A DNA stretch of 57,076 bases from a virus. The notes beneath the pieces are model-generated. The model saw only the letters and a list, made by a program, of their open reading frames with translations. It did not search any database and was not told the DNA's origin. Within the stretch, counting starts at the first letter, position 1. Every line of letters begins with the position of its first letter. A program made the translations under genes and the position numbers. Positions 2,629 to 34,059 of this stretch are shown in pieces. The stretch is taken from positions 1 to 57,076 of the IMG/VR virus record IMGVR_UViG_3300037225_000975; one strand, written 5' to 3'.

Positions 2629-3567
2629 TCAGTTCGTGACGCCGTTGCAGACCGCGAGGCCGTTCAGGTTGAAGAGCGCGAGACCCGCGTACCACTTGAC
2701 GCGGGTGATCATCTCGTCGCGGCTCTGGTGGACGCCGACTCGCTCGACCTGCATGCCCGCGGCGTTCAGCGCCGTGAGACCCGAGATGCCGTACTTCCGC
2801 GAGCCGTCGTCCAGCGTGCCGGCGATGACCGACGTGCACCCGGTGGCGGTGCCCTGGACCTGGTTGATTGGCAGGTAGTCATTGCGGAAGATCGGGATCT
2901 TGCGGTAGCTGGGGACTTCGATGCCGCTCGGGAGGGCGACCACCTCGTCGATGCGAGCGCCGCCGAGAGCGCGCAGCAAGGCGAAGTAGGCGTTGATGGT
3001 CCGCCCGTTCATGATGAAGTAGTCGACCTCGCCGTCCTTGTCGATCACGAGGTTGATGAGCTGGTCGAGGGTGGCGAGCGTCAGCGGGCCGCCGTTGGTC
3101 GGATCGCCGGTGCCGTTCGGCTGCACGAAGGTCTTGCTGACGTCGCAGAGACCGAGCAGGCCGGTGAACTGGTCGGCCGAGCCGGTGCCGTTCAGCAGCA
3201 TGTTGCGATAGAGGCGACCGGCCGACTTGGCCTTGCTCGCGATCTGGACCGCTTCCTGGTTGTTGCCTTGGCCGGAGCGGGTGGCCTGCACGAGACCGTT
3301 CACCTCGGCGTCGCCGATGATGCTGGTCAGCGAGCTGGTGACCTGGGTGAAGGTCGCCGGGTTCTTGTTGGTGATGGTGTCGCCGACCGCGTAGGTGCCG
3401 ACATCTCCGAGCACGAGCTCGCGGTTGTAGGCGAGGGCGTTGCCATCGATCCCGTCGAACGGCAGGATCTCGTAGAACCTGTCGACGGTGATGATGTTTT
3501 CGACCACGCCAGCGATCAGCTCGTTCTGGCAGAGCGCGGCCGACTGGGCCAAGGTGATGGATGACAT
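2629..3567 (-). CDS. major capsid protein, HK97-fold type
   Basis: The 312-residue protein follows directly after a scaffold-like gene. It shows the usual order of an HK97-type capsid protein: an N-terminal helical region, a segment DVGTYAVGDTITNKNPATFT resembling the extended loop/strand, a helical spine around NQEAVQIASKAKSAGRLYRN, and a C-terminal P/A-domain-like half with PSYRKIPIFRNDYLP and IAGTLDDGSRKYGISGL. The length matches short capsid proteins cleaved or assembled with a separate scaffold. The start at 3567 is preceded by GGGAG, which is also the 3' arm of a hairpin. The assignment rests on context and pattern rather than a search. Confidence 0.9.
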   Translation of the reverse strand: MSSITLAQSAALCQNELIAGVVENIITVDRFYEILPFDGIDGNALAYNRELVLGDVGTYAVGDTITNKNPATFTQVTSSLTSIIGDAEVNGLVQATRSGQGNNQEAVQIASKAKSAGRLYRNMLLNGTGSADQFTGLLGLCDVSKTFVQPNGTGDPTNGGPLTLATLDQLINLVIDKDGEVDYFIMNGRTINAYFALLRALGGARIDEVVALPSGIEVPSYRKIPIFRNDYLPINQVQGTATGCTSVIAGTLDDGSRKYGISGLTALNAAGMQVERVGVHQSRDEMITRVKWYAGLALFNLNGLAVCNGVTN

Positions 3568-3572
3568 GGTGC

Positions 3573-3632
3573 GGGACTCCCGATGGTTGGTGGTGCTCGT
3601 CAGAGCGACCTGCCGGCCAGAGCGGGAGTCCC
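3573..3632 (-). promoter_or_regulatory. leader hairpin covering the capsid ribosome binding site
   Basis: GGGACTCCCG (3573-3582) pairs with CGGGAGTCCC (3623-3632), a perfect 10-bp inverted repeat around a 40-base loop. In the minus-strand mRNA the second arm, ending five bases before the capsid ATG, contains the only good Shine-Dalgarno sequence (GGGAG). Pairing would hide it, suggesting translational control or RNA processing at the most expressed gene. This is inference from sequence. Confidence 0.55.
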
Positions 3633-3651
3633 TACCCCTGATGGGTGACGA

Positions 3652-4479
3652 CTACCGCGGCAGCTGAGACAGACCGCGCTCGATTTTCTGTTGCGGAGTC
3701 AGCTTGTCGGAGGGAATCGCTCCCTTGCCGGTGCCAGATCCTTGTGGCATCCCGCCACCGGACCGGCCGCTCGACTCGAAGGCTCTCGCATACTTGGGAT
3801 TGGCTCGCATCTCCGCGACCAGTCCCTCTATGCTGAGATACCCGCCTCGTCCGTCCGAGCGAGGATCACCCTCGTCGTCGACGACTCTGACGACATACTT
3901 GCCGTCTTCCTTCAGAAGTACACACTGGTCCGTGATGAGCCGCGACAGCAGCTCGACGGATCCTTTCGCTGAAGCGAGAGCCGAGATGGCTTCCTTCTCG
4001 ATCAGGTGAGTCGCCAGGGACTCCCCCATCTCGCGAACTCGCGCCTCGTGCTCGGTCTTGAGCTGCTGGATGGTCTGCTCCGTTTCCTTCTTGATCTTGT
4101 CCAGCGCTCCCTTTGTGCGGCCGTCCGTGTCGCCGTTCTTCTCCTCGATCTCGCGGATCTTCTCGAGCTTCGCCTTGATATCTTCCGGCTCCATGCCCAG
4201 CTCCGTCCATCGACGGATCTGCGCCTTCATCTCCTTCGCCGCTTTGCGCTCGCTGTCGAGCGCCTTGGTGAGGCCGGTGTTGTCGAGCCGCTTGGCGAGA
4301 ACGGGGTCGAGCTTGTACTTGCCATCCTCTCCCTTGGCGTAGAGGGACTGGTACTGCTTCGGCACGGTGGCGACGTCGTCGACCTCCGGCGCGATCACGA
4401 CGTCGTCGCCATCGCCCGCTGCGCGGGCGCTGGTAGCTGCGAGCGCCATGGCGCCGATGGCTAGTGCGAGAATGAACAT
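3652..4479 (-). CDS. scaffold-like protein with a signal-peptide-like N-terminus, 275 aa
   Basis: Residues ~30-190 are highly charged and helical (SERKAAKEMKAQIRRWTEL, KLEKIREIEEKNGDTDGR, KKETEQTIQQLKTEHEARV), as in internal scaffolding proteins. The C-terminus is basic and Gly/Ser-rich. The gene lies directly upstream of the capsid gene, the classic scaffold position. Oddly, the protein begins MFILALAIGAMALAATSARA, a textbook Sec signal peptide ending in an AxA cleavage motif. The start is well supported by CCAGGAG upstream of the ATG at 4479; the next in-frame ATG (codon 11) has no ribosome binding site. Confidence 0.8.
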   Translation of the reverse strand: MFILALAIGAMALAATSARAAGDGDDVVIAPEVDDVATVPKQYQSLYAKGEDGKYKLDPVLAKRLDNTGLTKALDSERKAAKEMKAQIRRWTELGMEPEDIKAKLEKIREIEEKNGDTDGRTKGALDKIKKETEQTIQQLKTEHEARVREMGESLATHLIEKEAISALASAKGSVELLSRLITDQCVLLKEDGKYVVRVVDDEGDPRSDGRGGYLSIEGLVAEMRANPKYARAFESSGRSGGGMPQGSGTGKGAIPSDKLTPQQKIERGLSQLPR

Positions 4480-6784: not shown

Positions 6785-6860
6785 TGGCTGCCAGGGCTGG
6801 AATCGAACCAGCGACCTTCGAGTTAACAGCTCGCTGCTGCTACCGCTGAGCTACCCGGCA
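6785..6860 (-). tRNA. tRNA-Asn (anticodon GTT), CCA encoded
   Basis: The 76-base minus-strand sequence folds as a tRNA. A 7-bp acceptor stem TGCCGGG/CCTGGCA has one G-T pair. The D arm is GCTCAGCGGTAGC. The anticodon stem CGAG/CTCG carries loop CTGTTAA, giving anticodon GTT. The variable region is AGGTC and the T arm GCTGG-TTCGATT-CCAGC. The discriminator is G, as in bacterial tRNA-Asn, and the 3' CCA is encoded. It is the only tRNA I found and sits inside the head operon. Confidence 0.93.
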
Positions 6861-9157: not shown

Positions 9158-10519
9158 CTAGAATCCTTTCACGACGGCGTCGCCGTCATGCTCGCATAGT
9201 TCGTTGAACGCGCCGGATGACGCGTCCACCTGGTCGTCGTGGCATCCCTTCGTGGGGAAGGACTCCAGTTCTGAGAGATATTCCTCGTTCCAAGGCGCTC
9301 GCACCAGCTTCACGTTGCCAGCCAGGCATTGCGCCGCGTACGGTCTGGCGCGCGTCTCCTTGCTCGCCGTGACCGGCACAGCGTAGACGTCGCGTCCCGA
9401 GAGGCGGCTGATGAGGTAGTGCATCTCCGCCTTGCCCGCCTGGCCAGGATCTTGCTCGAGAGCGATCGGGCAGCGAGGTTCCTGGGCGCTGACGCGCTTG
9501 ATGTTCTCGAGCACCTTCCCGGGACCGTCGTGGAATCGACGCACGTCGACCACGTAATACGTGCCGTTCTTGACGACCATGCGCACGCCGACCGTCGCGT
9601 CAGGATCGAGATTCGAGTCCGATATCTCCGTGGCGGCGCGATCCCAGTAACGGATCTCGTTGTCGAACTCTTTCGGAACGGCGTCCACCACGTCGAACAT
9701 CTGCCTCTTGAAGTACGAGCCGGCTTGCTGCCTGGCGTTCCAATTACCGCCATACAGTCTCGAGCGCTCGTGCGCCGGCAGCGACTTGAGGTTGGCGACG
9801 TAGCCCGGATCTTTCGCCAGCAGCAGCGGATTGTCGTGGATGTTGGCGCTGATGAACGTCACCGATTTCGGCTCGAGGCCTCGATCGACCAGGGACTTCT
9901 TCGTGTCGCCCCAGACGATCTCGCCCTTCTCTCTGGCCATCCATCGCACCTTGGAATCTCGCTCGGGAATCGGGTAGCCCTTCTCCTCGTCGATCCACCA
10001 GCTGATGAACCGCCTCACCCAGCTGTCTGGATCCGGGTTGCAGGTGGCGCGCACGTACGGTCTCACGCCACACATCGAACGGTTTCGAGAGAGCATGTAG
10101 AAGAATTGCTGCTGCTCGAAATGGCACAGCTCGTCGAACGCGATGTAGCAGATCTGCGATCCCTGCCAGTCATACACGTTCTTGGCATGCTGCATGTGAG
10201 CGAACTTGATGCGGCTGCCCGAGACCGGATCAAACCATTCCAAGGCAGACTCTTTCGGAACCAGGCCAGCAGGTCCGTAAATCTCCCTAGACGTGTCCCA
10301 CAATCCGCCTGGTGCCGTGATCTGCGGATAGGTGCGACGAAAGATGACCGCCGAGAACCCCGGCACGTGCACGTTGCGAAGTCCCTCGAGCAGCTCGACG
10401 AACGTCTTGCCTCCCCCAGCTGCCCCGCCATAGATGATGATGTCCGCGTCGATGGAGCAGAACCGCGCCTGCGGTCCCTCCTGCGGAGCGATCATGATCT
10501 CTTCGGCGACTGCAGTCAT
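9158..10519 (-). CDS. terL: terminase large subunit (ATPase and nuclease)
   Basis: This is the packaging motor. The Walker A motif GGAAGGGKT lies at residues 31-39 and the Walker B IAFDE at 126-130, with a C motif region around RATCNPDPDSW. The C-terminal RNase H-like nuclease shows RYWDRAATE (Asp ~293), EQDPGQAGK (~356) and CHDDQVDA (Asp ~429/430). The 453-residue length is normal. The start at 10519 overlaps the preceding stop as ATGA; an upstream in-frame ATG at 10573 would overlap that gene by 58 bases and is less likely. The order TerS-like protein, two small proteins, TerL, portal is typical. Confidence 0.95.
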   Translation of the reverse strand: MTAVAEEIMIAPQEGPQARFCSIDADIIIYGGAAGGGKTFVELLEGLRNVHVPGFSAVIFRRTYPQITAPGGLWDTSREIYGPAGLVPKESALEWFDPVSGSRIKFAHMQHAKNVYDWQGSQICYIAFDELCHFEQQQFFYMLSRNRSMCGVRPYVRATCNPDPDSWVRRFISWWIDEEKGYPIPERDSKVRWMAREKGEIVWGDTKKSLVDRGLEPKSVTFISANIHDNPLLLAKDPGYVANLKSLPAHERSRLYGGNWNARQQAGSYFKRQMFDVVDAVPKEFDNEIRYWDRAATEISDSNLDPDATVGVRMVVKNGTYYVVDVRRFHDGPGKVLENIKRVSAQEPRCPIALEQDPGQAGKAEMHYLISRLSGRDVYAVPVTASKETRARPYAAQCLAGNVKLVRAPWNEEYLSELESFPTKGCHDDQVDASSGAFNELCEHDGDAVVKGF

Positions 10520-10806
10520 CGCGGCAGCTTCACCTGGGCTAGGTGGCGATTGGCGAGATCCTTGCGCATCCATTCTTGCGCTTCTGACTTGCTATGAGCG
10601 AGCTGGCAGTCTCCGGCGACGCGCCAAGCGCCGTCGTGACCTCTGATGAAGCCCACCCAACAGACCCGCAGTTTCGTCGTCGACTCTACCTGCCGCTGGT
10701 TGAAGCAGTCGAAGCAGTACTTCGCCATCGGCACCCGGCGCATCGGCTGCCCGCACTTCGCGCAGGTCTTGTCGACGAGAATCGCCGGAGCGTGCGAGTA
10801 CGTCAC
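10516..10806 (-). CDS. zinc-ribbon protein upstream of terminase, 96 aa
   Basis: CAKCGQPMRRVPMAKYCFDC at residues ~15-34 gives two CxxC pairs, a small zinc-ribbon. The rest includes VCWVGFIRGHDGAWRVAGDC and a helical C-terminus (EAQEWMRKDLANRHLAQ). It overlaps terL (ATGA) and the 68-aa gene by four bases, so all three are probably translationally coupled. A regulatory or DNA-recognition role in packaging is possible but untested. Confidence 0.8.
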   Translation of the reverse strand: MTYSHAPAILVDKTCAKCGQPMRRVPMAKYCFDCFNQRQVESTTKLRVCWVGFIRGHDGAWRVAGDCQLAHSKSEAQEWMRKDLANRHLAQVKLPR

Positions 10807-11341: not shown

Positions 11342-11429
11342 GATCGCGATCTTGCGTCGATGGCTCTGAAATACACGAAAGCCTCACTCTGAGGCCAGAG
11401 ATGAGGGCGGGTCCATTTATGCCGGAGGG

Positions 11430-11507
11430 GCTGAGAATAACTATTTGGAGTTGCAAGTGATTGCTACCGCAACGATTTGCAACTTCCGAATCGGGGTTAT
11501 TCTCACG
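11430..11507. repeat. dyad element A (GGTGAGAATAAC hairpin, ~78 bases)
   Basis: GCTGAGAATAAC at 11430 and its reverse GTTATTCTCACG at 11496-11507 form the outer stem. Inside, GGAGTTGCAA pairs with TTGCAACTTCC with one bulge. The inner sequence GAAGTTGCAA is partly shared with element B. A long stem-loop in RNA or a cruciform/dyad site in DNA is possible. Confidence 0.7.
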
Positions 11508-11674
11508 AAAGGGGGGGTATATAGTATGCATCTCCTTCCTCTCATCCTTCCTCAGCTACTTCCGAAGCAGCTCATTTTCTCATTGACTTCTTAAGATATT
11601 AGCTCTCTAATAACCACACTACAATAGGTACGGATTAGAGATACATGTCATACCCCCCCTTTGGTGAGAATAAC
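11496..11674. repeat. 179-base element with ~38-base inverted ends and G7/C7 runs
   Basis: The left end GTTATTCTCACGAAAGGG continues as GGGGTAT and ATGCATCTC; the right end is its reverse complement with few differences (ATGTATCTC, ATACCCCCCC, TTTGGTGAGAATAAC). The centre is AT-rich and includes CTTAAG (11590-11595). It also holds a sigma70-like pair on the plus strand, TTGACT (11583-11588) with 17 bases to TCTAAT (11606-11611). Confidence 0.7.
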
Positions 11675-11739
11675 TAGCCGGCCGAAGTCGCAACTAGCAC
11701 GCCCGCCATCGCTTACGACTCGGTCTGGTTATTCTCACC
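11663..11739. repeat. dyad element B (GGTGAGAATAAC hairpin, 77 bases)
   Basis: GGTGAGAATAAC (11663-11674) and GTTATTCTCACC (11728-11739) form a perfect 12-bp outer stem. Inside, CCGAAGTCG pairs with CGACTCGG with one bulge. The spacing is the same (77-78 bases) as in element A. Both share the outer stem and the same GAAGTYGCAA-like inner arm. Confidence 0.75.
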
Positions 11740-11812
11740 CCTTCGGACGAAACCCCTCCCCGACCCCTTCCGGCCGCTTTTCGCCCCTCGCGATTCCAAA
11801 TCATCAAGCTCG

Positions 11813-12421
11813 CTATCTCGGAATCGCTGGACCCCATCCGACCACCTCCGCCACCCTGCGAGCCACCGCCTCGATCGATTCCGAGGCGTCGCAGAAAACG
11901 ATCTCGTCCCCGCCCCGACCCACTTCCTGGTCTCGATACGCCTCCCTCACTTTCTTTCCGAGCGAGTCGAACCTATCCGGGACCTCCCCTCCCCTGGCCG
12001 CGATCCTGGCATCCAGCGTCGAGTCGTCAGCTTCCAGGAAGACGACCTGAGACCAGCTCGGCTGACGAGCCCATCCTTCCAGCACCTTGCAGATGTCCGC
12101 CCCCTCGGCCTGGCGCATCGCGATCCTGTAAGCCAGATTCGAGACCCCGCACCGGTCCATCACCACCCGCAGCCCGGTCAGACGCAGGTTCTCCGCTCGC
12201 CGCATGCAGTCCACGTCCACCGCCGCGAAGGCGAGAGCCATCGCCTCCTCTCCCAGCTCGAACGCCGGATCCTTCAGGGGACCCCGGAGCAGCTCGCCAA
12301 GCCGCGTCCCTCCAGGGCATCGCAGGTAGACGGCACCCCACCCGCGTTCCAGCTCCCTGGCCACGCTGGTCTTCCCGCACCCGTCCGGACCTTCCAAGCA
12401 GCAGATCAGCGGATCGGTCAT
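11813..12421 (-). CDS. thymidylate-kinase-like nucleoside monophosphate kinase, 202 aa
   Basis: The P-loop GPDGCGKT lies at residues 11-18. It is followed by CPGGTRLGELLRG (~35-47), which matches the PGGT..GE segment of thymidylate kinases, and VMDRCGVSNLAYR (~87-99), equivalent to their DR..S..AYQ substrate motif. The enzyme should phosphorylate a deoxynucleoside monophosphate. In a phage encoding a dCMP-modifying enzyme it could act on a modified nucleotide, as T4 gp1 does, but that is inference. The start at 12421 overlaps the preceding stop (ATGA). It is the last gene before the non-coding region. Confidence 0.85.
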   Translation of the reverse strand: MTDPLICCLEGPDGCGKTSVARELERGWGAVYLRCPGGTRLGELLRGPLKDPAFELGEEAMALAFAAVDVDCMRRAENLRLTGLRVVMDRCGVSNLAYRIAMRQAEGADICKVLEGWARQPSWSQVVFLEADDSTLDARIAARGGEVPDRFDSLGKKVREAYRDQEVGRGGDEIVFCDASESIEAVARRVAEVVGWGPAIPR

Positions 12422-13209
12422 GCCTTCCCTTTCGTGATCACCCAGCAGCAGTTGGACGCCGCTTCCGGGTATTTTGGAGCTAAGAAATTCGCCAGCACGT
12501 CCCAAGAATAGAACTCGTGCAGCTCGTCGACCAGCGCCCGCTCCGCCGCGCTCATGACTCGCTTCATCGCCTGCGAGGTCATGAAGGTGCCGTGCGCCGA
12601 CCTCACCGCCAGCCCGGCCGCCTCGATCATCTGCTTCAGCTCCACCCACCGATACTCGTGCACGTGGTTCTTCGCCATGTGCTTCTCGTTGTAGACCGGC
12701 GTGCTGAGAAGGAGCACTCCATCCTTCCTCAGCTTCTCGCGGAAAGCCTCGAGCAGCTTGCGACCGTCATCCTTCTTCATGTGCTCGATGACCTCGAAGT
12801 TGACGATCACGTCGAACTGCCCGTCGATCTCGTCGGCGCGGCTCGTGAAATCGAACTCCTGGAGCACCTCGACCCACTTGCACTTGAACGGCTTCACCCG
12901 GTTCATGTCCACGCCCACGTATCTCCCGGGAATGTGGCTCATGGACGGTGCCAGCACTCGCACCAGCGGCAGATCCTGGCCGCACCCGACGTCGAGGACG
13001 CTCATGCCCTTCTTGATGAACCTGGTGGCGAACCCCCATCGAAAGAAATGCGCCGCGTAATCTCGATGCACCTTGTCGCCGTACTGGGCGGCTCGAAGCT
13101 GCGTCTTGTCGAACTTGCGATCGATCACGTCCAGGCGGTGCCGCCTGGGAGGCGGCAGCTCGACCGGCTCGATCGGCGCTGGTTTCGGTTTCTTGATTTT
13201 GACGATCAT
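12418..13209 (-). CDS. class I SAM-dependent methyltransferase, 263 aa
   Basis: After a Lys/Pro-rich N-terminus, the SAM-binding motif I reads MSVLDVGCGQDLPLVRVL (residues ~69-86), followed by GRYVGVDMN (motif II acidic residue) and FDVIVNFEVIEHM (motif IV/V, as in UbiG-type small-molecule and lipid methyltransferases). The C-terminus has LLLSTPVYNEKHM. The target is unknown; a modified base, small molecule or protein are all possible. The start at 13209 overlaps the previous stop as ATGA, and its own stop overlaps the kinase start. Confidence 0.85.
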   Translation of the reverse strand: MIVKIKKPKPAPIEPVELPPPRRHRLDVIDRKFDKTQLRAAQYGDKVHRDYAAHFFRWGFATRFIKKGMSVLDVGCGQDLPLVRVLAPSMSHIPGRYVGVDMNRVKPFKCKWVEVLQEFDFTSRADEIDGQFDVIVNFEVIEHMKKDDGRKLLEAFREKLRKDGVLLLSTPVYNEKHMAKNHVHEYRWVELKQMIEAAGLAVRSAHGTFMTSQAMKRVMSAAERALVDELHEFYSWDVLANFLAPKYPEAASNCCWVITKGKA

Positions 13210-13523
13210 GGCACTGCCTCGTAGGTTGCCGCGAAGATGTCTGGCTTGCACGGATATCGCTCGCCCTTGATGCCGGTGATGACCCAATCGCCCGGGCAGA
13301 CGATGTGTCCACCCTCAAGGGTGTCGATCCAGCCATGTTCCAAGAGGCGCCTGTTGCAGTTCACGCACAGCGCATGTCCCGAAGTGTTCGGGTCATTATA
13401 GCGCCTGACGACCTTGCCCTCTATGAGTACCCAATCTTTCCCCACCATGTCGTCAGGATGGTCTCCGTTCTTCCACCATCGCGTCGCTTCGACTATGACC
13501 GGTTTCTTGCGGAACTTGCTCAT
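13206..13523 (-). CDS. conserved phage protein with PGDWVITG-type motif, 105 aa
   Basis: MSKFRKKPVIVEATRWWKNG opens the protein and GHIVCPGDWVITGIKGERYP with CKPDIFAATYEAVP closes it. This C-terminal pattern is very common in small phage and prophage proteins of unknown function. A middle CVNCNRRLLEHG adds a CxxC. It belongs to the four-base-overlap chain of small genes. Function unknown. Confidence 0.85.
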   Translation of the reverse strand: MSKFRKKPVIVEATRWWKNGDHPDDMVGKDWVLIEGKVVRRYNDPNTSGHALCVNCNRRLLEHGWIDTLEGGHIVCPGDWVITGIKGERYPCKPDIFAATYEAVP

Positions 13524-22028: not shown

Positions 22029-22421
22029 TCAGTAGCCGAACCAGTCCTTGAGCAGGCCGGAGATGTCCGGTGGCGAGTAGTCAGCTCCCTTGCCCTTGTC
22101 TCCCTGATGAGAGGCGGCGGCCTTGTGCTTGGTCATGTTCGACCTGTGCACCTCCCAAAAAGCCGCGTCGAGAGGCACGTCAAGCTGGGTGGCCGTTCCC
22201 GCGGTCACGTAGAGCAGATCGGCCAGACCGTCGAGCAGCTCTACCTCGTCCAGCTCGTGCATCGCCATCACCACCTCGCCGAGCTCCTCGATCATGAGCT
22301 CTGCCCGGAGATATCTCTGATCCTTGGTGACCTTGAACACCTCCTTCAGATGAGAACTGATGTCCTTCAGATGAGATGCTGCTTTGCAGAGATCGAGTCG
22401 ATGGTTCTTGTCGAACGTCAT
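22029..22421 (-). CDS. MazG-like / dNTP pyrophosphohydrolase, 130 aa
   Basis: The start at 22421 overlaps the primase stop as TGATG; longer in-frame extensions lie inside the primase gene and are probably shadows. AELMIEELGEVVMAMHELDE with VELLDGLADLLYVTAGTATQ matches the EExxE...ExxD metal-binding helices of the all-alpha MazG/HisE nucleotide pyrophosphohydrolases. Such enzymes degrade (d)NTPs to monophosphates; in a phage with modified nucleotides it could remove the canonical one, as T4 gp56 dCTPase does. The substrate is unknown. Confidence 0.8.
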   Translation of the reverse strand: MTFDKNHRLDLCKAASHLKDISSHLKEVFKVTKDQRYLRAELMIEELGEVVMAMHELDEVELLDGLADLLYVTAGTATQLDVPLDAAFWEVHRSNMTKHKAAASHQGDKGKGADYSPPDISGLLKDWFGY

Positions 22422-24622
22422 CAACCTTGCTGGCGGCGGAGCACCAACTTTTTTCTGAAATTCAAGGACGGCCTGTTCGACCCTTCCTCGTTGGGGGATT
22501 CCATTTCTGTTGTTGGCTTGCTCTCTCGTTTCTTCTCCGTCTTCCATGACTGGTCTCCTGATTTTGCGCGCATCCAAAGATCTTGGATTCGCTGGTTGAT
22601 GATGTATTCCACGACCGGTCTGCCGACCTTGCTCGATTTCTTCCTGGGTGTCAAGATGCCGAACAGGGTGAGGTCGTCGAACTTGCGATAGATGGTTGCC
22701 GAGTTGACCTTCATCGCCTCCACTATGGCGCCTCGTTCTGCAGTTCCGCCAAGCTTCATCATCGCCTCGATGATGTCGATGTTGAACCCGTGAGCGGTGT
22801 CCATCGCCACTCTCTCGATGATCCCGTAGACCTCGGCATCCACTGACTTCTTGTCGAGAACGTGCGCGATGGAGAGACCGAGCTTCATGAGCTGCTTGGC
22901 CAGGCGAGTGCCATTCTCCGCGATAGGCCTGTAAACGACCACGTCGTCACGATACTTCTCTCGTTCCACCTGGGCTCTCATGGCTGCCACGAGTTGCACG
23001 AGAGCGGTGAGCCGTTGAGCATAGATTGGAGGCAGATCAGGCAACGTGTCAGGGTCGAGACGCCTGATTAGAAACCTGGAGACCATGAGCTTGGTCTCGG
23101 TCTCCATCTTCTTCTCGATGCCGACCATGCGAATAGCAGACTCGATGATGCTGTCAGCTTGCGCTCCCTCGAGCTTCGATATTTGCAACTTCAAGAACCG
23201 CTCGCCGAGCAGAGCTTGTCTGTTACCATGGATCGCCGATGTCACGCCGGCCAGGAGAGAGAAGTGGCAGTCCAGATACTCCCTGGTGATGCCGTTGCCG
23301 AACGTCTTCTGCACGTAGCCATCGTAGGCGCCGCGAAGAGTCGAGAACACCTCCTCCTGGGCGACGACCGGCATCGAGAGAATCTCGGTGAAATCCTTCG
23401 CCACCAGGGTCTTTCCCTTCAGACGAGGAATCAAGCTTGGATCCTTGGCGGATCCTGCGTCGCCTCTCCATCCAGAGATCAGGCAGTGAGGAGTCACCGA
23501 CGACCTGAACACGGCTCTTTTCGTTTCTGATAGCGCGCTCAGCAGCATCGTCTTGCCTGCTCCGGGAGGTCCGACCAGGTACATCCACACCGGATCACCA
23601 GGAATCTCGTTGGAGCTGATCACCGCCAGCGAGCACATGAGAGCGAGTTCGAGATCGTCGGTCATCACCACGTGCTTCTTGAACGTCTCGACGACTTCCT
23701 GAAACGTGGCCGGTTCGAGCGGCTCTCCGTTGGCATCTATCTCGCGCGGATCCTCCTCGTCGGTTGTTCTCTTGTCCTCGTCATGGTGTCTCGGTTTGTC
23801 GGAGAGCAATCCCATGATCGACTTGAACGTCATCGACGGACCGGCGCTCTTCATGCCGTCGACGATGTGATCTCTGATGTCCCAACCGGTCGGGCGCCCG
23901 ACAGGCCATGAGACATGCTTGACAGCTCTCGCCACTCCTGCGAGATTTCTGATGGCTCGGTCAGTGCCCATGTCGCCGGCGTTGTCGGCATCATAGCACG
24001 TGATGACTTGCTTGTTGCGGAACAGGTCGGCCCAGTGGCTCTTGAACACGGCGGCTCCAGGCACCGCCACCACCACGTCATCATCGACCTCCATCTCCTT
24101 CAGCAACCACATCATCGCGATAGCATCCCATTCGCCCTCGCACAGCCACACCCTGGTTCCCTCAGGAGCCTCCGCGAGCTTGTCTCCCATCCACAGCTGC
24201 ACCTTGCAACCGGCCGTGCTCATCATCATCTTGGTCTCTGGATCGTAACGTCTCACGTCATGGATCACTCCCCTGGGACTGGCGCACGGCACGAGCCAGT
24301 GGAAACCGTCATATCCCAGACCGGCTTCCTTCAAGACGCTGATCGGTAGGTGGCGGTGCTGAGAGAGCTCTGTCCACTGCTTCTTCGTCGCTCGGTCGGA
24401 ATTCATCTTGCAGATGGCGGTTAGGAACGAGATATGGTTCCCGCTTGCTCCGCACACCTTGCAATCCCAGACCGTCTTGTCGACATCGCAAAAGAAGTGC
24501 CTCTCCTTCCCGCACAGAGGACAGTCACCAACCCAGTTTCCAGAGCCGTTGGGAGCTCTCATGGCCGCTCCCCAGAAGTTGAGGGTGCGGATGATGTCCG
24601 GAGATTTCTCGGCTTCGCTCAC
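22421..24622 (-). CDS. primase-helicase (TOPRIM primase plus AAA+ ATPase)
   Basis: The start is GTG at 24622, overlapping the polymerase stop as GTGA; an ATG at 24655 is the alternative. A CHC2-like zinc finger lies at ~34-57 (CPLCGKERHFF, DCKVCGASG). The TOPRIM domain shows VWLCEGEWDAIAM (Glu162) and CYDADNAGD (Asp211, Asp213). After an acidic linker, an AAA+ domain has Walker A VGPPGAGKT (~350-358) and later sensor-type arginines. The C-terminus has a winged-helix-like segment (GGTAERGAIVEAMKVNSATI). It should prime and unwind DNA at the phage fork with the family A polymerase encoded upstream. The 733-residue fused architecture is typical of phages and plasmids. Confidence 0.9.
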   Translation of the reverse strand: MSEAEKSPDIIRTLNFWGAAMRAPNGSGNWVGDCPLCGKERHFFCDVDKTVWDCKVCGASGNHISFLTAICKMNSDRATKKQWTELSQHRHLPISVLKEAGLGYDGFHWLVPCASPRGVIHDVRRYDPETKMMMSTAGCKVQLWMGDKLAEAPEGTRVWLCEGEWDAIAMMWLLKEMEVDDDVVVAVPGAAVFKSHWADLFRNKQVITCYDADNAGDMGTDRAIRNLAGVARAVKHVSWPVGRPTGWDIRDHIVDGMKSAGPSMTFKSIMGLLSDKPRHHDEDKRTTDEEDPREIDANGEPLEPATFQEVVETFKKHVVMTDDLELALMCSLAVISSNEIPGDPVWMYLVGPPGAGKTMLLSALSETKRAVFRSSVTPHCLISGWRGDAGSAKDPSLIPRLKGKTLVAKDFTEILSMPVVAQEEVFSTLRGAYDGYVQKTFGNGITREYLDCHFSLLAGVTSAIHGNRQALLGERFLKLQISKLEGAQADSIIESAIRMVGIEKKMETETKLMVSRFLIRRLDPDTLPDLPPIYAQRLTALVQLVAAMRAQVEREKYRDDVVVYRPIAENGTRLAKQLMKLGLSIAHVLDKKSVDAEVYGIIERVAMDTAHGFNIDIIEAMMKLGGTAERGAIVEAMKVNSATIYRKFDDLTLFGILTPRKKSSKVGRPVVEYIINQRIQDLWMRAKSGDQSWKTEKKRESKPTTEMESPNEEGSNRPSLNFRKKLVLRRQQG

Positions 24623-26724
24623 GCCGTCACCGTCACGTCGGTCGTTTGCGACCATCTCTCAGTCGCTATCTTGAAACCAACCGGGAACGGGATCGGCGAA
24701 CCGAGCTTCATCGCGTCATCTCCCATGATCCTCACCGTATCCTGCTTGAGTTCTTTGCAGTCGATTTCCTTGTCGACCTCGATGATCAGCTCATCGTGGA
24801 TCTGGAGCAAGATCCTAGCCTGATCACGCCACTTGGTTATATAGCACTCGTCGAGACCGATCATCGCGTTCTTCATGACCTCTGCTGCTGTTCCCTGGAC
24901 GAGGTAATTGGTGGCGCGATATTCATAGCCCGGATCGATGCTGTAAACTCTGCCGAATGGATTGACAACGACTCCTTGATGTTTTGCGAGACCGACACTC
25001 TCGCCCATGAACTTGCGCACGCCGGGTAGTCTTTCATCATAATCGGAGATGAATTGTTTGGCTTCTTCCAAAGAAGTGCCAGTCATCTGGGCGATCTTTC
25101 CCGGCCCGCCACCATAGATCTTGCAAAACTGAAGATTTTTCGCGCGCTTGCGACCGATCTTGTATCGTTTCAGATTAGAGAGTTCTTCTTTAGAAAGAGA
25201 CGACTGGTCTTTCTTTGCAGAGATTTTCGCCAGTTTCTTGTCGTACGTGTGTCCCCAGATCAGGTCAGCGACGTTCTGATGGGCGTCTCCTCCAGCTACC
25301 AACGCGTTGATGAGCTCTTTGTCCTTCGCGAGCAAGGCCAGAATCCACACCTCGATTTGCGAGTAATCAGGCACGTAAAATAACGTGCCAGGTCGAGGAA
25401 CGAACACCTCTCTGGGACGATAGGGAACGTCGACTTTCTTCTTGCCTGATTCGTCGCTCGCCACGTTCTGAAGGTTAGGTCTCTCGGCGCTCATGCGCGC
25501 GGTCCTGGTGCCGGCTTGCTTGTAGTTTGGGTGAATGATCTTGCAACCGGTATCTAGTTCGAGCACGGACAGTGCCGCGTATTGCTCCGTGAAGTGCAGC
25601 ATCGTCGAGGCGGCTGAGTGGTGCAGAATGTGCCAGGCCAAAGGGTCGCCCATCACGAGCTTTTCAGAGCCATCAGCCTGATGCTCTCGCTTGACGCCAA
25701 TGTGCTCCAGGAACTCACCATCGCATTTCGGGTTCTGGCCAGTGTCCTGGCACACCAGGCAACCTGACCCCTTGCAATGCTGGCAGGCCACCGGCGCGTT
25801 GCCCTTCTTCTTGTTCTTGGAGTACCTGATCGGCGCGTGCTCTCGCACGCCGAAAAACTCCATCGTCATCTGCTTCGGCGAGGCGACGTTCAGGTCCTTG
25901 CCGCCAGCGAGATCGATGCCTTTCTTCGCTCTGTTGGCGATGGATCGATAGAATCCGGTCAGCTCGTCGTTTCTCTTCGAGTCGATGGCGACGCCGAGGC
26001 ACTCCATGCGCTCCAAGGTGGCCATGAGAGCCATCTCTCGGTCGTAAACTTCCTGGGCATCAGGATGGTTCTTGAAATGCTCGATGTGAGCTGCTCTAAG
26101 AGTCGCCACTCTCACGGCATCCGTGACTCCATACTTCTTCAGTACCTCGTGATCGGCGAGCCAGTAGTCAGCCTTGAGCTCCTCGGCTATGGCCCAACCT
26201 CTCTTCTTAGCCAATCTCCTGGCCGAGATGGTGGACTTCTGCAGATCGGTCTCGTCATCGATCGGAATGTCGAGGTACTTCTTGCACAGCGGCTTGAGAG
26301 CGTACGTTATCTCGTCCGAGGAGATGACCGAGGTACCGATGATGGTGCACAGCCACTCGCCGACCAGCGGCAACCCGACGGCCCTGGTCATGTGGCGATC
26401 GAATGGCGCATTGTGAGCGACTTTCGCGATCTTCTCGTTGACAAGGATCGGCTCCAAGGCCTTTCTCACGTCATCGGTCATGCTCACTTGCCTGGTCTGA
26501 GCACAAACCGGCAATCTAGCCCAAGCTGTTCTCCCATCGGGGTCGCAGAAAGTGAAGAAGAACGGTCGAGCTGGCCAGGTCTGTCTGTCGACGCCACGCT
26601 TTCCCCAGGGATCGAGCCCCGTGGTTTCCGTGTCGTACCCGAGCCAGTCACCTCGCAGAAGATCCAGGCCTTCATGACCTGGCACTCCAACCCACTCCCG
26701 TCTCCTCAGAATGGTTAGGGGCAT
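24619..26724 (-). CDS. family A DNA polymerase with 3'-5' exonuclease and Cys-rich insertion
   Basis: Exonuclease motifs are YDTETTG (Asp31), NAPFD (~105) and YGVTDAV (~198). Polymerase motifs are motif A DYSQIEVW (Asp453), motif B KRAKNLQFCKIYG (Lys528, Phe532, Tyr536) and motif C HDE (642-644), with GTRTARMSAERPNLQN at ~405-420. Residues ~314-334 hold CQHCKGSG and CLVCQDTG, then a further Cys: a DnaJ-like zinc knuckle inserted between exonuclease and palm, unusual for this family. Motif A has Trp where SQIELR polymerases have Arg. It should be the replicative polymerase. The stop overlaps the primase start. Confidence 0.95.
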   Translation of the reverse strand: MPLTILRRREWVGVPGHEGLDLLRGDWLGYDTETTGLDPWGKRGVDRQTWPARPFFFTFCDPDGRTAWARLPVCAQTRQVSMTDDVRKALEPILVNEKIAKVAHNAPFDRHMTRAVGLPLVGEWLCTIIGTSVISSDEITYALKPLCKKYLDIPIDDETDLQKSTISARRLAKKRGWAIAEELKADYWLADHEVLKKYGVTDAVRVATLRAAHIEHFKNHPDAQEVYDREMALMATLERMECLGVAIDSKRNDELTGFYRSIANRAKKGIDLAGGKDLNVASPKQMTMEFFGVREHAPIRYSKNKKKGNAPVACQHCKGSGCLVCQDTGQNPKCDGEFLEHIGVKREHQADGSEKLVMGDPLAWHILHHSAASTMLHFTEQYAALSVLELDTGCKIIHPNYKQAGTRTARMSAERPNLQNVASDESGKKKVDVPYRPREVFVPRPGTLFYVPDYSQIEVWILALLAKDKELINALVAGGDAHQNVADLIWGHTYDKKLAKISAKKDQSSLSKEELSNLKRYKIGRKRAKNLQFCKIYGGGPGKIAQMTGTSLEEAKQFISDYDERLPGVRKFMGESVGLAKHQGVVVNPFGRVYSIDPGYEYRATNYLVQGTAAEVMKNAMIGLDECYITKWRDQARILLQIHDELIIEVDKEIDCKELKQDTVRIMGDDAMKLGSPIPFPVGFKIATERWSQTTDVTVTA

Positions 26725-29430: not shown

Positions 29431-30396
29431 TCACAGTTCTGGATGATGTCTTTTCTTAAGCCGGAAGCTAGCTTCATCGCCCCTGCTGCAGACGGGAAGG
29501 AAGTGGCAGCCGCCGTATTGGTCGCACCTCGACCCGTTCCAGCCAAGATCTCGATCTTTCTGAGTGGTCGTCTTCCACCAGGCATAGAACTCCTCGACCA
29601 GCTTCTGAAGCCTGAACTTGTGGGTCTCCTTCTCATGCCGATCCAGGTGAATCTCGAGTCTTGTGAAGTAGTGATCCTCGTCCTTCATCGCCTCGTCGCC
29701 ACAGCGCTTCGCGTACTCGACCAGGCTCTCGTCCTGGCCCTGCTTCAATCCTGGACGGCGACAGATGTCGTAGATGATCTCGCCAGGCTCCTCGCCCATC
29801 ATCTCGGTGAGAGCCGTCGAGTAGGCGCCGATCTGCGTGTCAAGAGGCAGCGTGTCGCTGATGTTCTTTGACACCTGAGCCTTGAACTTCGTCTCGACCA
29901 GGTGAGGCGTCTTCTTGCCTTGGAACACCCGGTCCATCTTGCCGACATAGGGAACCGAGGCACCGTCGGGCATGGTCAGGTCCAGCTTGAACTTCTCCTC
30001 GATCTTGAGCCAGTCACGTTTCAGATCGCCAACCCCCCATTTCGACCAGTAGGCTGGCAGGATCTTGCCCAGCACCGCGACACTCTCGATCTTGATGTCC
30101 GTCGCCGTCGACGTCAACTCTCGATCTTCTGCCGAGAACTCTTTCTGGGCGTGCGCTAGGTCATCCTGGACGCCGCGAATGAGGCCGTTCACCGTTTTCC
30201 GGTTCGACACCAACGCGTGAGCGATGGCAGAGTGACCTAGCGCCCCAAAGATCAGCGGTTTCGAAGCGTGCGTGCTGTCCAAGCCTCGCACGATGCCAAG
30301 CCTGGCCATCTCCCGGCATTCGAGCCAGATGGACAGCATTGACTGGGATGTTCCGTCCACTCTGGGATCGTAGGTGGAGGATTTTGGAGCTTTCAT
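29431..30396 (-). CDS. Cas4/RecB-like PD-(D/E)xK nuclease with Fe-S cysteines
   Basis: The start at 30396 overlaps the preceding stop (ATGA). Nuclease motifs are VGKMDRVFQG (Asp154) and HLVETKFK (Glu168, Lys170), followed by LDTQIGAYSTAL, the Q..Y motif of RecB-family nucleases. Four cysteines, one near the N-terminus (Cys27 in IWLECREM) and three in CDQYGGCHFLPVC (291, 297, 303), match the iron-sulfur cluster layout of Cas4/AddB-type exonucleases. It probably resects DNA ends for the RecA-like annealase. A linked CRISPR function is not indicated because no array was found. Confidence 0.9.
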   Translation of the reverse strand: MKAPKSSTYDPRVDGTSQSMLSIWLECREMARLGIVRGLDSTHASKPLIFGALGHSAIAHALVSNRKTVNGLIRGVQDDLAHAQKEFSAEDRELTSTATDIKIESVAVLGKILPAYWSKWGVGDLKRDWLKIEEKFKLDLTMPDGASVPYVGKMDRVFQGKKTPHLVETKFKAQVSKNISDTLPLDTQIGAYSTALTEMMGEEPGEIIYDICRRPGLKQGQDESLVEYAKRCGDEAMKDEDHYFTRLEIHLDRHEKETHKFRLQKLVEEFYAWWKTTTQKDRDLGWNGSRCDQYGGCHFLPVCSRGDEASFRLKKRHHPEL

Positions 30397-31022
30397 AGAT
30401 GTCCTTTCACGAACAGGCCGATCCCGACCGCGTCCATCTCGTGCGACTTGTCGGTCTTGGGTCGCCATTTGGGAAGCTTCGCGCGGATGCGTGGTTCCAA
30501 GATGTCTTTCGGCATATTACCCTTCCACTCCATGATCGGCACTGGACAGAAGATGCTGGATTGGTTGTTGCAGAGCTTGCCCATGACGGCGCCGAACACG
30601 GTCGTGAGCTTCACCAGGTCACCATCCCTGGCTGCCGCGAGTCCCTTGCCCGCCTCCATGAACTGGGGCAGCTCGGCGTACACGACCATGACGGTCGACC
30701 TCCTGGCGATATCACCGAGTCGATCCGCGATCTCGGCGGCGTGCCACCACCATGGTCGATTCTTCGTCGGTGACGAGATCGAACCGGAATCGATGGGTGG
30801 CACGAGCTCGTCATGCTGCATCCTGCTCCAGAGAGCCCAGCCAGTTCCGCCGAGCCCCGGGTCGACGGTGAGGAAGTTGCCGAGGTTCCCGAAAAGCTTG
30901 TACGTGTTGCCTTTCTCGTTCTCGCCGAGCGCGCCGACGCCGACAAGTTCTTTTCGAGATCCTACGAGAGCGAACCCCAAGGTCGACGTCATCTTGACCA
31001 GTTTCTTCTTGAGCAACCTCAT
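30393..31022 (-). CDS. RuvC-like resolvase (RNase H fold), 209 aa
   Basis: Motif I reads LTVDPGLGGTGWALW (Asp54), motif II VVYAELPQ (Glu117), and the C-terminal SHEMDAVGIGLF gives the His/Asp of motif III-IV (~193-204). This layout matches RuvC-type Holliday-junction resolvases seen in phages. The start at 31022 and the stop both overlap neighbouring genes by four bases. It should process branched replication or recombination intermediates before packaging. Confidence 0.85.
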   Translation of the reverse strand: MRLLKKKLVKMTSTLGFALVGSRKELVGVGALGENEKGNTYKLFGNLGNFLTVDPGLGGTGWALWSRMQHDELVPPIDSGSISSPTKNRPWWWHAAEIADRLGDIARRSTVMVVYAELPQFMEAGKGLAAARDGDLVKLTTVFGAVMGKLCNNQSSIFCPVPIMEWKGNMPKDILEPRIRAKLPKWRPKTDKSHEMDAVGIGLFVKGHL

Positions 31023-32365
31023 CCGAGCCTCCTGTTGGTTTGAATCTTGGTCATGAGCCACTGGGCTGACTCATTCTTCGCAGCAAGAGACTCGAGGACA
31101 TCCTCGTCGACAGTGCGCTCCGTCACCAGGTCGACCACGAGGATCGGAGCTTTCTTCAAAGGATGCTCGAGTCGGTCTTCCGACTGGCGTCTTCCTTCAA
31201 ATGAGTACGGGCTGCTGAAATAGATCTCAGTGTCAGCAGCAGAAAGATCGAGACCGTACTTGCCGCACGCCACCTGGCAGAGGAAGACGCGTCGCTTGCC
31301 TTCATGGAATAGGCTCCTCCGCCGCCTTCGTTCTGGCACCTCAACCTCGCCGGAAACCCACGTGGCGCTAATGTTTGCCGCCTTCAGCTCCCGCCACACC
31401 CGAGCTAGCTCGAGGTTGAAGGAGAACCAGACCACGACCTGCTCGTTCTTGAGTTGAGTCAAAAGCAAGTCGACCAGGGCCGCGTACTTCCAGCACGGTA
31501 GCTCTCTCCCCGGCACGTGGCCTCCGGCTATCCTGCGGATCCAGGTACCGACCACGAGCGAGTTCTTCGCCTCGAGACCTGGAATCTCCCACCTCTCGAC
31601 TGACTGCCGGTAGATCCGCAAGGCGTCACCTTCCAGGGATCCGGTCAGCTTCTCTCGGATCTTGATCGAGCCGAGACCTGCTTCCTGGCGAGTGAGGATG
31701 TGACCATCGACATGGAACTGCTCCTTGATCTTCTTGGCCGATCCGGGCCTGGCCATGATGTCAAACCCGGCCTTGAAAAAGTGACGCTGCTGCCATGTCC
31801 AGTAATTGCTGCAGCCCATCCACTCGCCACCAGAGGCGAAAGCCATCTGGGTCCACACTTCGAGCAGTGATTCAGGATTAGTGAGACCGGTGAGGATGGC
31901 GCGAATCGGCGCGGTGCTCAGCTCCCTGACGGCGACCTTCGTGATCTGAGCTCTCGGATTTTTGACGGCCGTGCTCTCATCCAGCAAGATGGCGTGCCAG
32001 TTTCCTAACCAGGCAGATGACGTGTGAAGCAGCGTCTCGTACTGGATCAGATACCAGCCGGCCTCGCCACCACCATGCTTCTCCATGATCTTTTCGCGCT
32101 TCTTCTTCTCGCCTTTGATCATGGTCCAGCGGAGTGATTCCTTCTCCAACTCCTCCTGCCAGGAGACGAGCGGCGTCGACGGCGCCACCACCAGAACTTG
32201 CTCGCATCCTGGCTCGATTCCGGCAACCTTGAGACGATGCTGACACCATCGGATCGACGTGATCGTCTTGCCGAGCCGCATCTCCATGATGAACGCTGCC
32301 CAGTCCTGGTCAGCGAACCGATCGAAGGCGACCTGCTGGTGCGGCATCAGCTCGCGACGCTTCAC
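31019..32365 (-). CDS. SNF2-family DNA helicase/ATPase, 448 aa
   Basis: Motif I is MEMRLGKT (~27-34, compare EMGLGKT of SNF2 proteins). Motif II is LLDESTAVKN (Asp129-Glu130). A motif III-like LTGLTNPES follows, and motifs V-VI read LDLSAADTEIYFSS and EGRRQSEDRLEHP (~389-402). The C-terminal RecA-like domain is complete. Such single-polypeptide helicases are common in phage replication and recombination modules. It overlaps the next and previous genes by four bases. Confidence 0.9.
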   Translation of the reverse strand: MKRRELMPHQQVAFDRFADQDWAAFIMEMRLGKTITSIRWCQHRLKVAGIEPGCEQVLVVAPSTPLVSWQEELEKESLRWTMIKGEKKKREKIMEKHGGGEAGWYLIQYETLLHTSSAWLGNWHAILLDESTAVKNPRAQITKVAVRELSTAPIRAILTGLTNPESLLEVWTQMAFASGGEWMGCSNYWTWQQRHFFKAGFDIMARPGSAKKIKEQFHVDGHILTRQEAGLGSIKIREKLTGSLEGDALRIYRQSVERWEIPGLEAKNSLVVGTWIRRIAGGHVPGRELPCWKYAALVDLLLTQLKNEQVVVWFSFNLELARVWRELKAANISATWVSGEVEVPERRRRRSLFHEGKRRVFLCQVACGKYGLDLSAADTEIYFSSPYSFEGRRQSEDRLEHPLKKAPILVVDLVTERTVDEDVLESLAAKNESAQWLMTKIQTNRRLG

Positions 32366-32901: not shown

Positions 32902-33008
32902 TAGTTATTCTCACCGACTACCCCCCTTGATATGTATCTCTTAACTTACTCTCTTAAGAGAGAAGAGAAATTAGTTCAAGAATAGTATAAGGGGGCTACT
33001 TGGTGAGA
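32902..33008. repeat. dyad element related to the 11.5-kb region, with covarying G/C runs
   Basis: The left arm is TAGTTATTCTCACC (32902-32915) followed by GACTACCCCCC and ATATGTATCTC. The right arm is AAGGGGGCTACTTGGTGAGA (up to 33008). The centre is AT-rich with a perfect CTCTCTTAAGAGAG palindrome. Compared with 11496-11674, the C and G runs are exchanged in both arms, so arm complementarity is kept. The right arm is less conserved after GGTGAGA. Confidence 0.65.
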
Positions 33009-33191
33009 GAAAGTCTTCAGAGGACAAATCACGAACCAGCGCTGTGCTTGTTTCCATGAAAATGTCGCTCGACGACCATCGTCAAAAGCCACGACGATCA
33101 TGACCCCGTGGACCCGACGATGCCTCTGGACCACGACTCCGCTGCCGTGGTACAGATGCTCGACGAGGTCTTTGGGGTGAGGACATCTCAT
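32976..33191 (-). CDS. small beta-domain protein, 71 aa
   Basis: MRCPHPKDLVEHLYHGSGVV followed by HGVMIVVAFDDGRRATFSWK is a compact beta domain, HGxGxV...VxF.DG, as in small Tudor/SH3-like domains of phage and helicase C-termini. Its last residues overlap the right arm of the repeat element, so the end may be poorly constrained. It lies 22 bases after the 149-aa gene; the ribosome binding site is weak. Confidence 0.5.
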   Translation of the reverse strand: MRCPHPKDLVEHLYHGSGVVVQRHRRVHGVMIVVAFDDGRRATFSWKQAQRWFVICPLKTFSHQVAPLYYS

Positions 33192-33213: not shown

Positions 33214-33663
33214 TCACCAGACTTCGAAACCTTCGCCGCATCCGCGAAGGAACGCGACGAACTCCTCGAGATGCTCGATGCTGGCTGAGTATGGCGATTC
33301 TTCGATCTTCGTAGGGGAACCGCTCTTGAGTTGACCTGCGCGATCGACGTGGACATCATCACGCTTCCAGTTCTTGACGTGGATGACGTCTAAACCAGCG
33401 GCCTTGATGGCCATCACCTTCCTGGCCATCGCATCGGAGAGTATCTTGACTTGATCAGCAGTGCGAGGACCATCTCCATCGTTGAATGACATGCCCTTCA
33501 AGATCTCGTCAGAGAGACTAGTTTTGCCAGTCTCGGCGCGATGCTCATTCTCGCACTCGATGATGAGATAGAGAATTGGTCTCCAGGACCAGATGTTGGC
33601 CCTGAAATATTTGCCTGCTTCGGTGACGGGCTTGATGCCCGAGACGTCCATGCCCATGATCAT
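33214..33663 (-). CDS. conserved phage protein of unknown function, 149 aa
   Basis: The start at 33663 overlaps the HTH gene stop (ATGA). The N-terminus (MGMDVSGIKPVTEAGKYFRA, NIWSWRPILYLIIECENEHR) matches a widespread but uncharacterised phage protein family with the pattern G.DV.G..P..E.G.YFR.N.W.WRPL. The rest is helical with a short beta part (IHVKNWKRDDVHVDRAGQ). Function unknown, probably early. Confidence 0.8.
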   Translation of the reverse strand: MIMGMDVSGIKPVTEAGKYFRANIWSWRPILYLIIECENEHRAETGKTSLSDEILKGMSFNDGDGPRTADQVKILSDAMARKVMAIKAAGLDVIHVKNWKRDDVHVDRAGQLKSGSPTKIEESPYSASIEHLEEFVAFLRGCGEGFEVW

Positions 33664-33839
33664 CTCCAGGAGTGGGTGAAACCACGAATGATGTAGCTGA
33701 TATTGGACTGGGTGGTGCGGTACATGACGCCCAGATCTTCCTGACTCATCAGCGATTTCCTGGCAAGCCACCTGATAGCGCGCACTTGGAAATCGTGGAG
33801 GCGATGAGTTCTGTGACGACGATCGATGCCGTGAGCCAT
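33660..33839 (-). CDS. small helix-turn-helix protein, 59 aa
   Basis: The ATG at 33839 follows CAGGGA; an in-frame ATG at 33887 without ribosome binding site is the alternative. The segment FQVRAIRWLARKSLMSQEDL with GVMYRTTQSNISYIIRGFTH looks like a helix-turn-helix (S.EDLGVMYRTTQSNISYII). It is the first gene of the early minus-strand operon, so it could be an early regulator acting on phage promoters, for instance at the GGTGAGAATAAC sites. Partner or target is not shown. Confidence 0.65.
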   Translation of the reverse strand: MAHGIDRRHRTHRLHDFQVRAIRWLARKSLMSQEDLGVMYRTTQSNISYIIRGFTHSWR

Positions 33840-33974
33840 GAGGTTTCCCTGGGGTTGGACGGGCTCATCATGGCGCCATTTCGACATGTAAACTAGAGAC
33901 CTTTGGTTCTTTCAGAAGCATGCTTTAGGCCCGATTCATCAGTTTTCGCAGTTAAGTAAGTTACCTAAGTCATT

Positions 33975-34004
33975 ATTATCACAGTATCTATGATTTCCTG
34001 TTTA
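33975..34004 (-). promoter_or_regulatory. candidate early minus-strand promoter
   Basis: On the minus strand, -10 element GATAAT (33975-33980) has an upstream TG (extended -10 TGTGATAAT). A -35-like TAAACA (33999-34004) lies 18 bases upstream. It would drive the early block starting with the HTH protein. The -35 overlaps the plus-strand promoter -35, so the two are divergent and may compete. Confidence 0.45.
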
Positions 34005-34028
34005 CATATCTGAAGCAAGTGCTAATCT
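34001..34028 (+). promoter_or_regulatory. candidate plus-strand promoter
   Basis: TTTACA (34001-34006) and TAATCT (34023-34028) with a 16-base spacer lie about 30 bases before the first plus-strand gene, whose ATG (34060) has AGGAG upstream. The region between 33900 and 34028 is AT-rich compared with the rest of the window. Likely sigma70-type, read by host polymerase. Confidence 0.5.
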
Positions 34029-34059
34029 ACTCTCTGCAATGCGAACCCAGGAGAAAGCC

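Follow-up and report, generated by a model that had tools for sequence, protein, structure and literature searches.

A Palindromic, G/C-Clamped AT-Rich Element Present Twice in a Phage Genome: A Candidate Replication Origin

Introduction

What is the function of the palindromic region that separates the replication genes from the packaging genes in this phage? The DNA analyzed, hereafter the window, is an IMG/VR virus record of 57,076 bases. In a 471-bp gap between the two operons (11342-11812), an earlier note had described a symmetric region at 11430-11739 (site 1) and had listed a replication origin, a packaging site, and operator or promoter sites as candidate functions, with no choice among them. 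The analysis presented here leans toward the origin, weakens the packaging site and leaves operators or promoters as a rival. We place the probability that site 1, together with a second site at 32904-33012 (site 2), represents two copies of one replication-origin element just short of even.

Results

Genome Context

The replication operon is read leftward, with genes from ~33.9 to 11.8 kb that include an SNF2-type (SF2) helicase (31019-32365), what is probably a RuvC-like nuclease, judged from sequence alone (30393-31061), a PolA-type polymerase (24619-26724), a primase-helicase (22421-24655), an exonuclease, Sak4, a methyltransferase, a thymidylate synthase and, at the operon end to the right of site 1, a thymidylate kinase-like gene (11813-12412, - strand). 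The packaging and structural genes are also read leftward, from 11.34 kb and apparently on through the contig ends to ~37.8 kb; they comprise the large terminase subunit gene terL (9158-10573, - strand), which lies downstream (left) of site 1, the capsid gene (2629-3567), and portal and tail genes. No small-subunit terminase was recognised upstream of terL in the window.

Layout of Site 1

Site 1 contains four boxes, GGTGAGAATAAC, in alternating orientation (-> <- -> <-) around an AT-rich core clamped by a G7 and a C7 run. The outer left box, GCTGAGAATAAC, is at 11430-11441 (+ strand) and the inner left box at 11496-11507 (- strand, on which it reads CGTGAGAATAAC); the inner right (11663-11674, + strand) and outer right (11728-11739, - strand) boxes are exact. 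The G7 (11511-11517, + strand) and C7 (11653-11659, - strand) runs are the sole G7/C7 runs of the window. The 155-base AT-rich core previously placed between the hairpins does exist, but it is not bordered by these runs, which enclose 135 bp (11518-11652; 62% AT vs. 40% for the window), the proposed unwinding element. The CTTAAG reported in the core is present close to the dyad centre (11590-11595); this hexamer occurs three times in the window, approximately the chance number, and lies near the centre of both site 1 and site 2.

The exact sequence GTGAGAATAAC was found four times in the window, three at site 1 and one at 32904-32914. When up to two mismatches were allowed, the box gave six matches vs. 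1.98 expected, a count reached in 2 of 100 shuffles. The 25-nt inverted repeat 11496-11520/11650-11674, with a score of 22, was the strongest of the window, the top scores of 24 dinucleotide shuffles of the window being 11-16. The element at site 1 is real and non-random.

Folding of Site 1

Box coordinates and fold z-scores confirmed the two hairpin-capable elements of the earlier note. The left hairpin (B; 11430-11507, 78 nt) displayed RNA fold z-scores of -6.3 (- strand) and -7.0 (+ strand); the right one (A; 11663-11739, 77 nt) is a mirror copy of it that retains the bulge and differs by three double compensatory changes. Values for the site 1 hairpins spanned -5 to -7, and in an 84-nt fold scan of the window they ranked second and third by z-score (~-6). 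As regards the outer stems, that of the right hairpin is perfect over 12 bp, as had been claimed, but the single mismatch attributed to the left one proved to be two unpaired terminal positions, leaving a perfect stem of 10 bp.

Taken by itself, the inner part of the left hairpin gave z-scores of -4.5/-4.9, and the interior of the right one was no better than shuffles (-0.8 and -0.3). Aligned outward, the interiors of both hairpins beat 1000 of 1000 shuffles; their independently predicted folds have pair positions and a bulge in common, and three of nine inner pairs were changed on both sides yet still paired (permutation P ~0.012). The entire 320 nt of site 1 gave fold z-scores of -10.3 and -9.5 for + and - strand RNA, respectively, and ~-10 for DNA. 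The predicted structure (+ strand RNA and DNA, with a similar shape for the - strand) is three-armed, the outer boxes being paired together, the inner boxes and the G7/C7 runs forming a 25-nt central stem, and the hairpin interiors folding on themselves; the alternative fold consists of two separate hairpins of 77-78 nt. Structural support is therefore good for boxes, central stem and left hairpin, and modest for the right hairpin, whose interior alone is unexceptional.

Examined as intrinsic terminators, the 77-78-nt hairpins have no T run behind them, the next bases being CCC or AAAGGG, and a terminator scan gave two small matches inside hairpin B, near chance.

A Second Copy at the Head of the Replication Operon

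Site 2, absent from the earlier note, is a shorter version of the same layout. Its exact box, GTTATTCTCACC (32904-32915, - strand), lies 21 nt from the ATG (32882) of the first ORF of the replication operon and is opposed to a degenerate box, GGTGAGAgaaag (33001-33012, + strand), across a C6 run (32921-32926, + strand), a 64-bp core (32927-32990; 73% AT, containing CTCTCTTAAGAGAG) and a G5 run (32991-32995, + strand). Each of the two leftward operons has a copy at its head: the replication operon site 2, the packaging operon site 1.

The 14-mer AGAGATACATRTCA is found only at these two sites in the window, on the rightward arm of site 1 (11637-11650, + strand, AGAGATACATGTCA) and on the leftward arm of site 2 (32928-32941, - strand, AGAGATACATATCA); the sites are therefore mutually inverted, though both adjoining operons read left. 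Between box and core, where the sequence varies, the arms are complementary within each site, strongly at site 1 and modestly at site 2 (equalled in 51 of 1000 shuffles), but they do not pair between sites, because the order is G then C at site 1 and C then G at site 2. Judged from the sequences, this within-site complementarity would be expected of a stem or clamp and less so of a directional protein site. Site 2 lacks hairpins of the site 1 type.

Sequence and Layout in Relatives

The nearest relatives found had TerL at best ~52% identical, capsid 63% over the full length and polymerase 44%. Exact pattern scans for the boxes and hairpins in IMG/VR (hairpin, relaxed hairpin, and run-plus-box) and for the hairpin in GTDB revealed no homologous element, and blastn against phage and plasmid collections gave no match to it. 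A covariance model built from both hairpins and run on 494 kb, made up of the window plus related loci, recovered only the window itself. Pattern matches at L002, L003, L040, and L041 were read as chance; another (L039, 4326-4430) corresponded to recurring TTGAG-AATAAC-CTCA palindromes, probably unrelated operators, on an AT-rich phage contig of no evident relation.

The earlier note had proposed a search for box pairs upstream of terL in related phages. No boxes were found in the distant relatives G002 (IMGVR_UViG_3300037481_000553) and G010 (IMGVR_UViG_3300032883_000366), but the layout is present upstream of terS/terL in both: inverted repeat, G/C run, AT-rich core, opposite run and inverted repeat, as at sites 1 and 2, with one such region in each phage. 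The G002 element, with a DNA fold z-score of -8.7, is a 36-nt inverted repeat (86%, 210-nt loop), the strongest in 63.7 kb, around a C8 run, a 70-nt core (71% AT) and a G6 run; a terS-like ORF and terL follow immediately downstream. The G010 element has as its core the most AT-rich island in 41.6 kb (~20% GC), which contains the palindromic AATTAATT and is bounded by C8 and G7 runs, a perfect inverted repeat of 11 nt and an outer one of 26 nt (fold z -6.7); it is located between an early methyltransferase gene, homologue of that at 12418-13287 of the window, and a terS-like ORF plus terL. More short inverted units, e.g., GGGGGGTCTCACCCCC, adjoin the G002 element (L016, 3672-4020).

The replication module of these two phages is 27-40% identical to that of the window, and their TerL matches are only partial (40% over 178 aa and 27%). 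When 25 records or loci were scanned alike for opposite runs around an AT-rich core, the layout was present in all three near-complete records carrying primase-MCM/Pol/Sak4/helicase (the window, G002 and G010), in none of five large capsid-module records (286 kb), and in none of 16 TerL-relative loci (TerL 40-52%, the 50% class), many of which are short. A fragment with part of the module (G001) had no element, its contig stopping short of both operon heads. By exact count, three of three vs. none of five large records corresponds to 1 in 56, for layout criteria set once the window had been seen and with a chance of at least one match per record of 5-27% in shuffles, though not at this position. 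The box sequence appears private to this phage and the layout common to phages with the same replication module; the scan strongly suggests, rather than proves, that layout and module go together, because the criterion was shaped on the window.

Candidate Initiator

The product of 22421-24655 (- strand) contains CHC2 zinc ribbon and TOPRIM primase domains, an MCM-like AAA+ region and a C-terminal HTH match (residues 625-689). Its AlphaFold2 model had low to moderate confidence (pLDDT 61 overall; mostly 65-90 over residues 310-690, with some weak stretches), and MCM helicases were its best matches in the PDB, ranks 1-18 being all MCM proteins (E down to 6.8e-10). The modeled protein apparently joins a TOPRIM primase to an MCM-like AAA+ helicase that ends in a winged helix. 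Among 50,697 records of isolated phages it had two matches only, both weak and in the primase region, too few to widen the association of layout and module. The HTH ORF at 33660-33887 had no Pfam match and no convincing phage homologue, and nothing links it to the boxes.

Discussion

A Replication Origin as the Favored Reading

A replication origin is favored because the second copy heads the replication operon and an AT-rich core is flanked by inverted boxes. The occurrence of the layout with the replication module, and its absence from relatives sharing only the capsid module and from the mostly short loci sharing TerL, favors it further over a packaging site or an ordinary terminator. The pairing of arms inside each site, the common architecture of hairpins A and B with its compensatory changes, and the mutual inversion of the two sites also speak for an origin. 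More tentatively, the element may represent an undescribed type of phage origin, with a palindromic, G/C-clamped AT-rich core and inverted hairpin-forming boxes, conserved in layout and not in sequence, and served by the primase-MCM-like protein.

In the mechanism that we propose, a phage initiator would bind the 12-bp boxes facing each other over the core, the core would melt, and the G/C runs would limit the bubble. With the additional boxes of site 1, exposed strands or a cruciform could form hairpins with boxes as stems. Helicase and primase of the phage itself would then be loaded, the likeliest loader being the 22421-24655 protein, and forks would leave in either direction.

Several observations count against an origin. 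Neither tandem iterons nor DnaA boxes were found, promoters too lie in AT-rich intergenic sequence ahead of operons, G002 and G010 have a single region of this kind instead of two, and the association of layout and module rests on three phages. The cumulative GC-skew check put forward in the earlier note gave a minimum at ~38 kb, at neither site, and a maximum at ~9 kb, merely near site 1. Skew was discarded as origin evidence: the cumulative curve is suggestive, but third-position skew had no step at site 1 or site 2, and the curve probably reflects codon bias of structural genes.

Two origins per genome are known in Bacillus phage SPP1, where oriL and oriR combine boxes with an AT-rich unwinding element (PMC6316719). 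One of them lies in a long intergenic region interrupting late genes. The window likewise has the same boxes at two genome places, next to AT-rich, putatively unwinding regions (62 and 73% vs. 40%). The SPP1 boxes, in contrast, are direct repeats bound by gp38, whereas those of the window alternate in inverted orientation with no tandem repeat; G/C clamps are a feature of the window, in which no relative of gp38 was identified. Inverted boxes over an AT-rich spacer are also the arrangement of HSV OriS, in which a third box gives a hairpin with a 12-nt stem (PMC12543377). The window has such boxes plus a further hairpin-capable inverted box, an analogy of layout only; there is no sequence relation, and site 1 differs by its fourth box and G/C clamps. 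The SF2 (SNF2-type) helicase of the window is at most a putative counterpart of OBP.

The origin of the Sulfolobus plasmid pRN1 is a 100-nt stem-loop conserved in structure and not in sequence, used by a primase-helicase-winged-helix protein (PMC4234260). As in pRN1 and the proposed phage BIP-1 stem-loop, structure is kept without sequence in G002 and G010, and the 22421-24655 protein has primase, helicase and C-terminal winged helix in the same order as that of pRN1. An archaeal-type primase and an SF3 helicase are present in pRN1, as compared to a TOPRIM primase and an MCM-like helicase here. Moreover, the single pRN1 stem-loop is directly 3' of the replication gene, whereas the window sites are at 11.5 and 32.9 kb and the gene at 22421-24655.

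Alternative Explanations

The main and serious rival to an origin, which we regard as possible if rather doubtful, is transcription control: the boxes would be operators for a phage regulator, with promoters in the AT-rich core, and the two sites would co-switch the replication and packaging operons, perhaps by looping. Both sites head the two leftward operons, the exact box is found nowhere else, and the G002 and G010 elements lie between diverging gene blocks. At the site 1 dyad centre lies the top sigma70-like match of the window (11583-11611, + strand, TTGACT-17-TCTAAT; equalled in 10 of 300 core shuffles), but it reads right, where no gene is read. A weaker opposed match (7.6) occurs at 11624-11596 (TTGTAG-17-TAATAT). 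Bidirectional promoters would fit a control region, but the leftward one is weak and the implied starts would be ~29 bp apart, as against a start spacing that in such promoters is most often 18 bp and commonly also 10 or 23 (PMC12825309). No leftward match exceeded shuffles and the site 2 core had none. Furthermore, the orientation of the 14-mer relative to the operon is reversed from one site to the other, and a directional protein site would be unlikely to swap its G/C runs yet stay self-complementary.

An RNA role for the hairpins, in which transcripts would carry them as put-like antiterminators or as sites of RNase III processing, seems unlikely. The hairpin z-scores (-5 to -7) and three compensatory changes speak for an RNA element, as does the parallel with HK022 putL/putR, two sequence-similar structured RNAs of ~70 nt near PL and PR (PMC9378689); the window, too, has a pair of similar hairpin elements, ~70 nt long, at diverging starts. 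Each put RNA, however, has two stem-loops, as compared to one long interrupted stem per hairpin here, and put has no AT-rich clamped core; the rightward direction from site 1 has no operon, and the right hairpin would be transcribed outward solely by antisense RNA. No Rfam family was retrieved, the only hit being a sub-threshold CRISPR-repeat match (E 0.33). The inner stem of the right hairpin alone equals shuffles, site 2 has no such hairpin, and what sites and phages have in common is the clamped AT core, not the hairpins.

A cos or pac site for terminase would agree with the closeness of the element to the packaging operon in the window, G002, and G010, but we consider it very improbable. 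The element did not accompany the terminase, many TerL loci being short: loci sharing TerL (40-52%) were without it, phages with poorly related TerL and the same replication module have it, and 21 kb separate the packaging operon from the second copy.

It is scarcely credible that the region is mobile, with MITE-like terminal repeats, or serves recombination, as sites for inversion of the 21-kb replication segment: the arms resemble terminal repeats and the mutually inverted sites flank the replication operon, but phage and plasmid collections gave no match, no recombinase or transposase was recognised among the scanned proteins, and no target duplication was seen. The consensus of integron attC sites is RYYYAAC; the box does not fit it and attC was dropped, as was a Fur-like box, on sequence.

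If the element is an origin, it would provide a recognisable origin anatomy for an uncultured phage group with an unusual primase-MCM-like helicase, such elements could be found by layout where sequence searches fail, and the loading of an MCM-like helicase by a phage without host initiators would be testable on a short DNA fragment. If it is instead a control region, it would be a switch coupling the replication and packaging operons.

Other Features of the Window

The most significant 84-nt fold of the window (3571-3654, z -6.9) falls between the capsid gene and the gene next to it upstream, and another significant fold (33097-33180, z -5.4), possibly a terminator or small RNA, lies between site 2 and small ORFs of the HTH region. 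A tRNA-Asn (gtt) is encoded at 6785-6860 (- strand), inside the structural gene region. The last 36 bases (57041-57076) are repeated at 87-122, and simple and overlapped joins both break frame; the contig probably ends in repeats inside a tail-like gene. A third AT-rich intergenic region (33888-34038), without boxes, separates the HTH ORF from a rightward operon and contains opposed sigma70-like matches, TTTACA-16-TAATCT to the right and TAAACA-18-GATAAT to the left.
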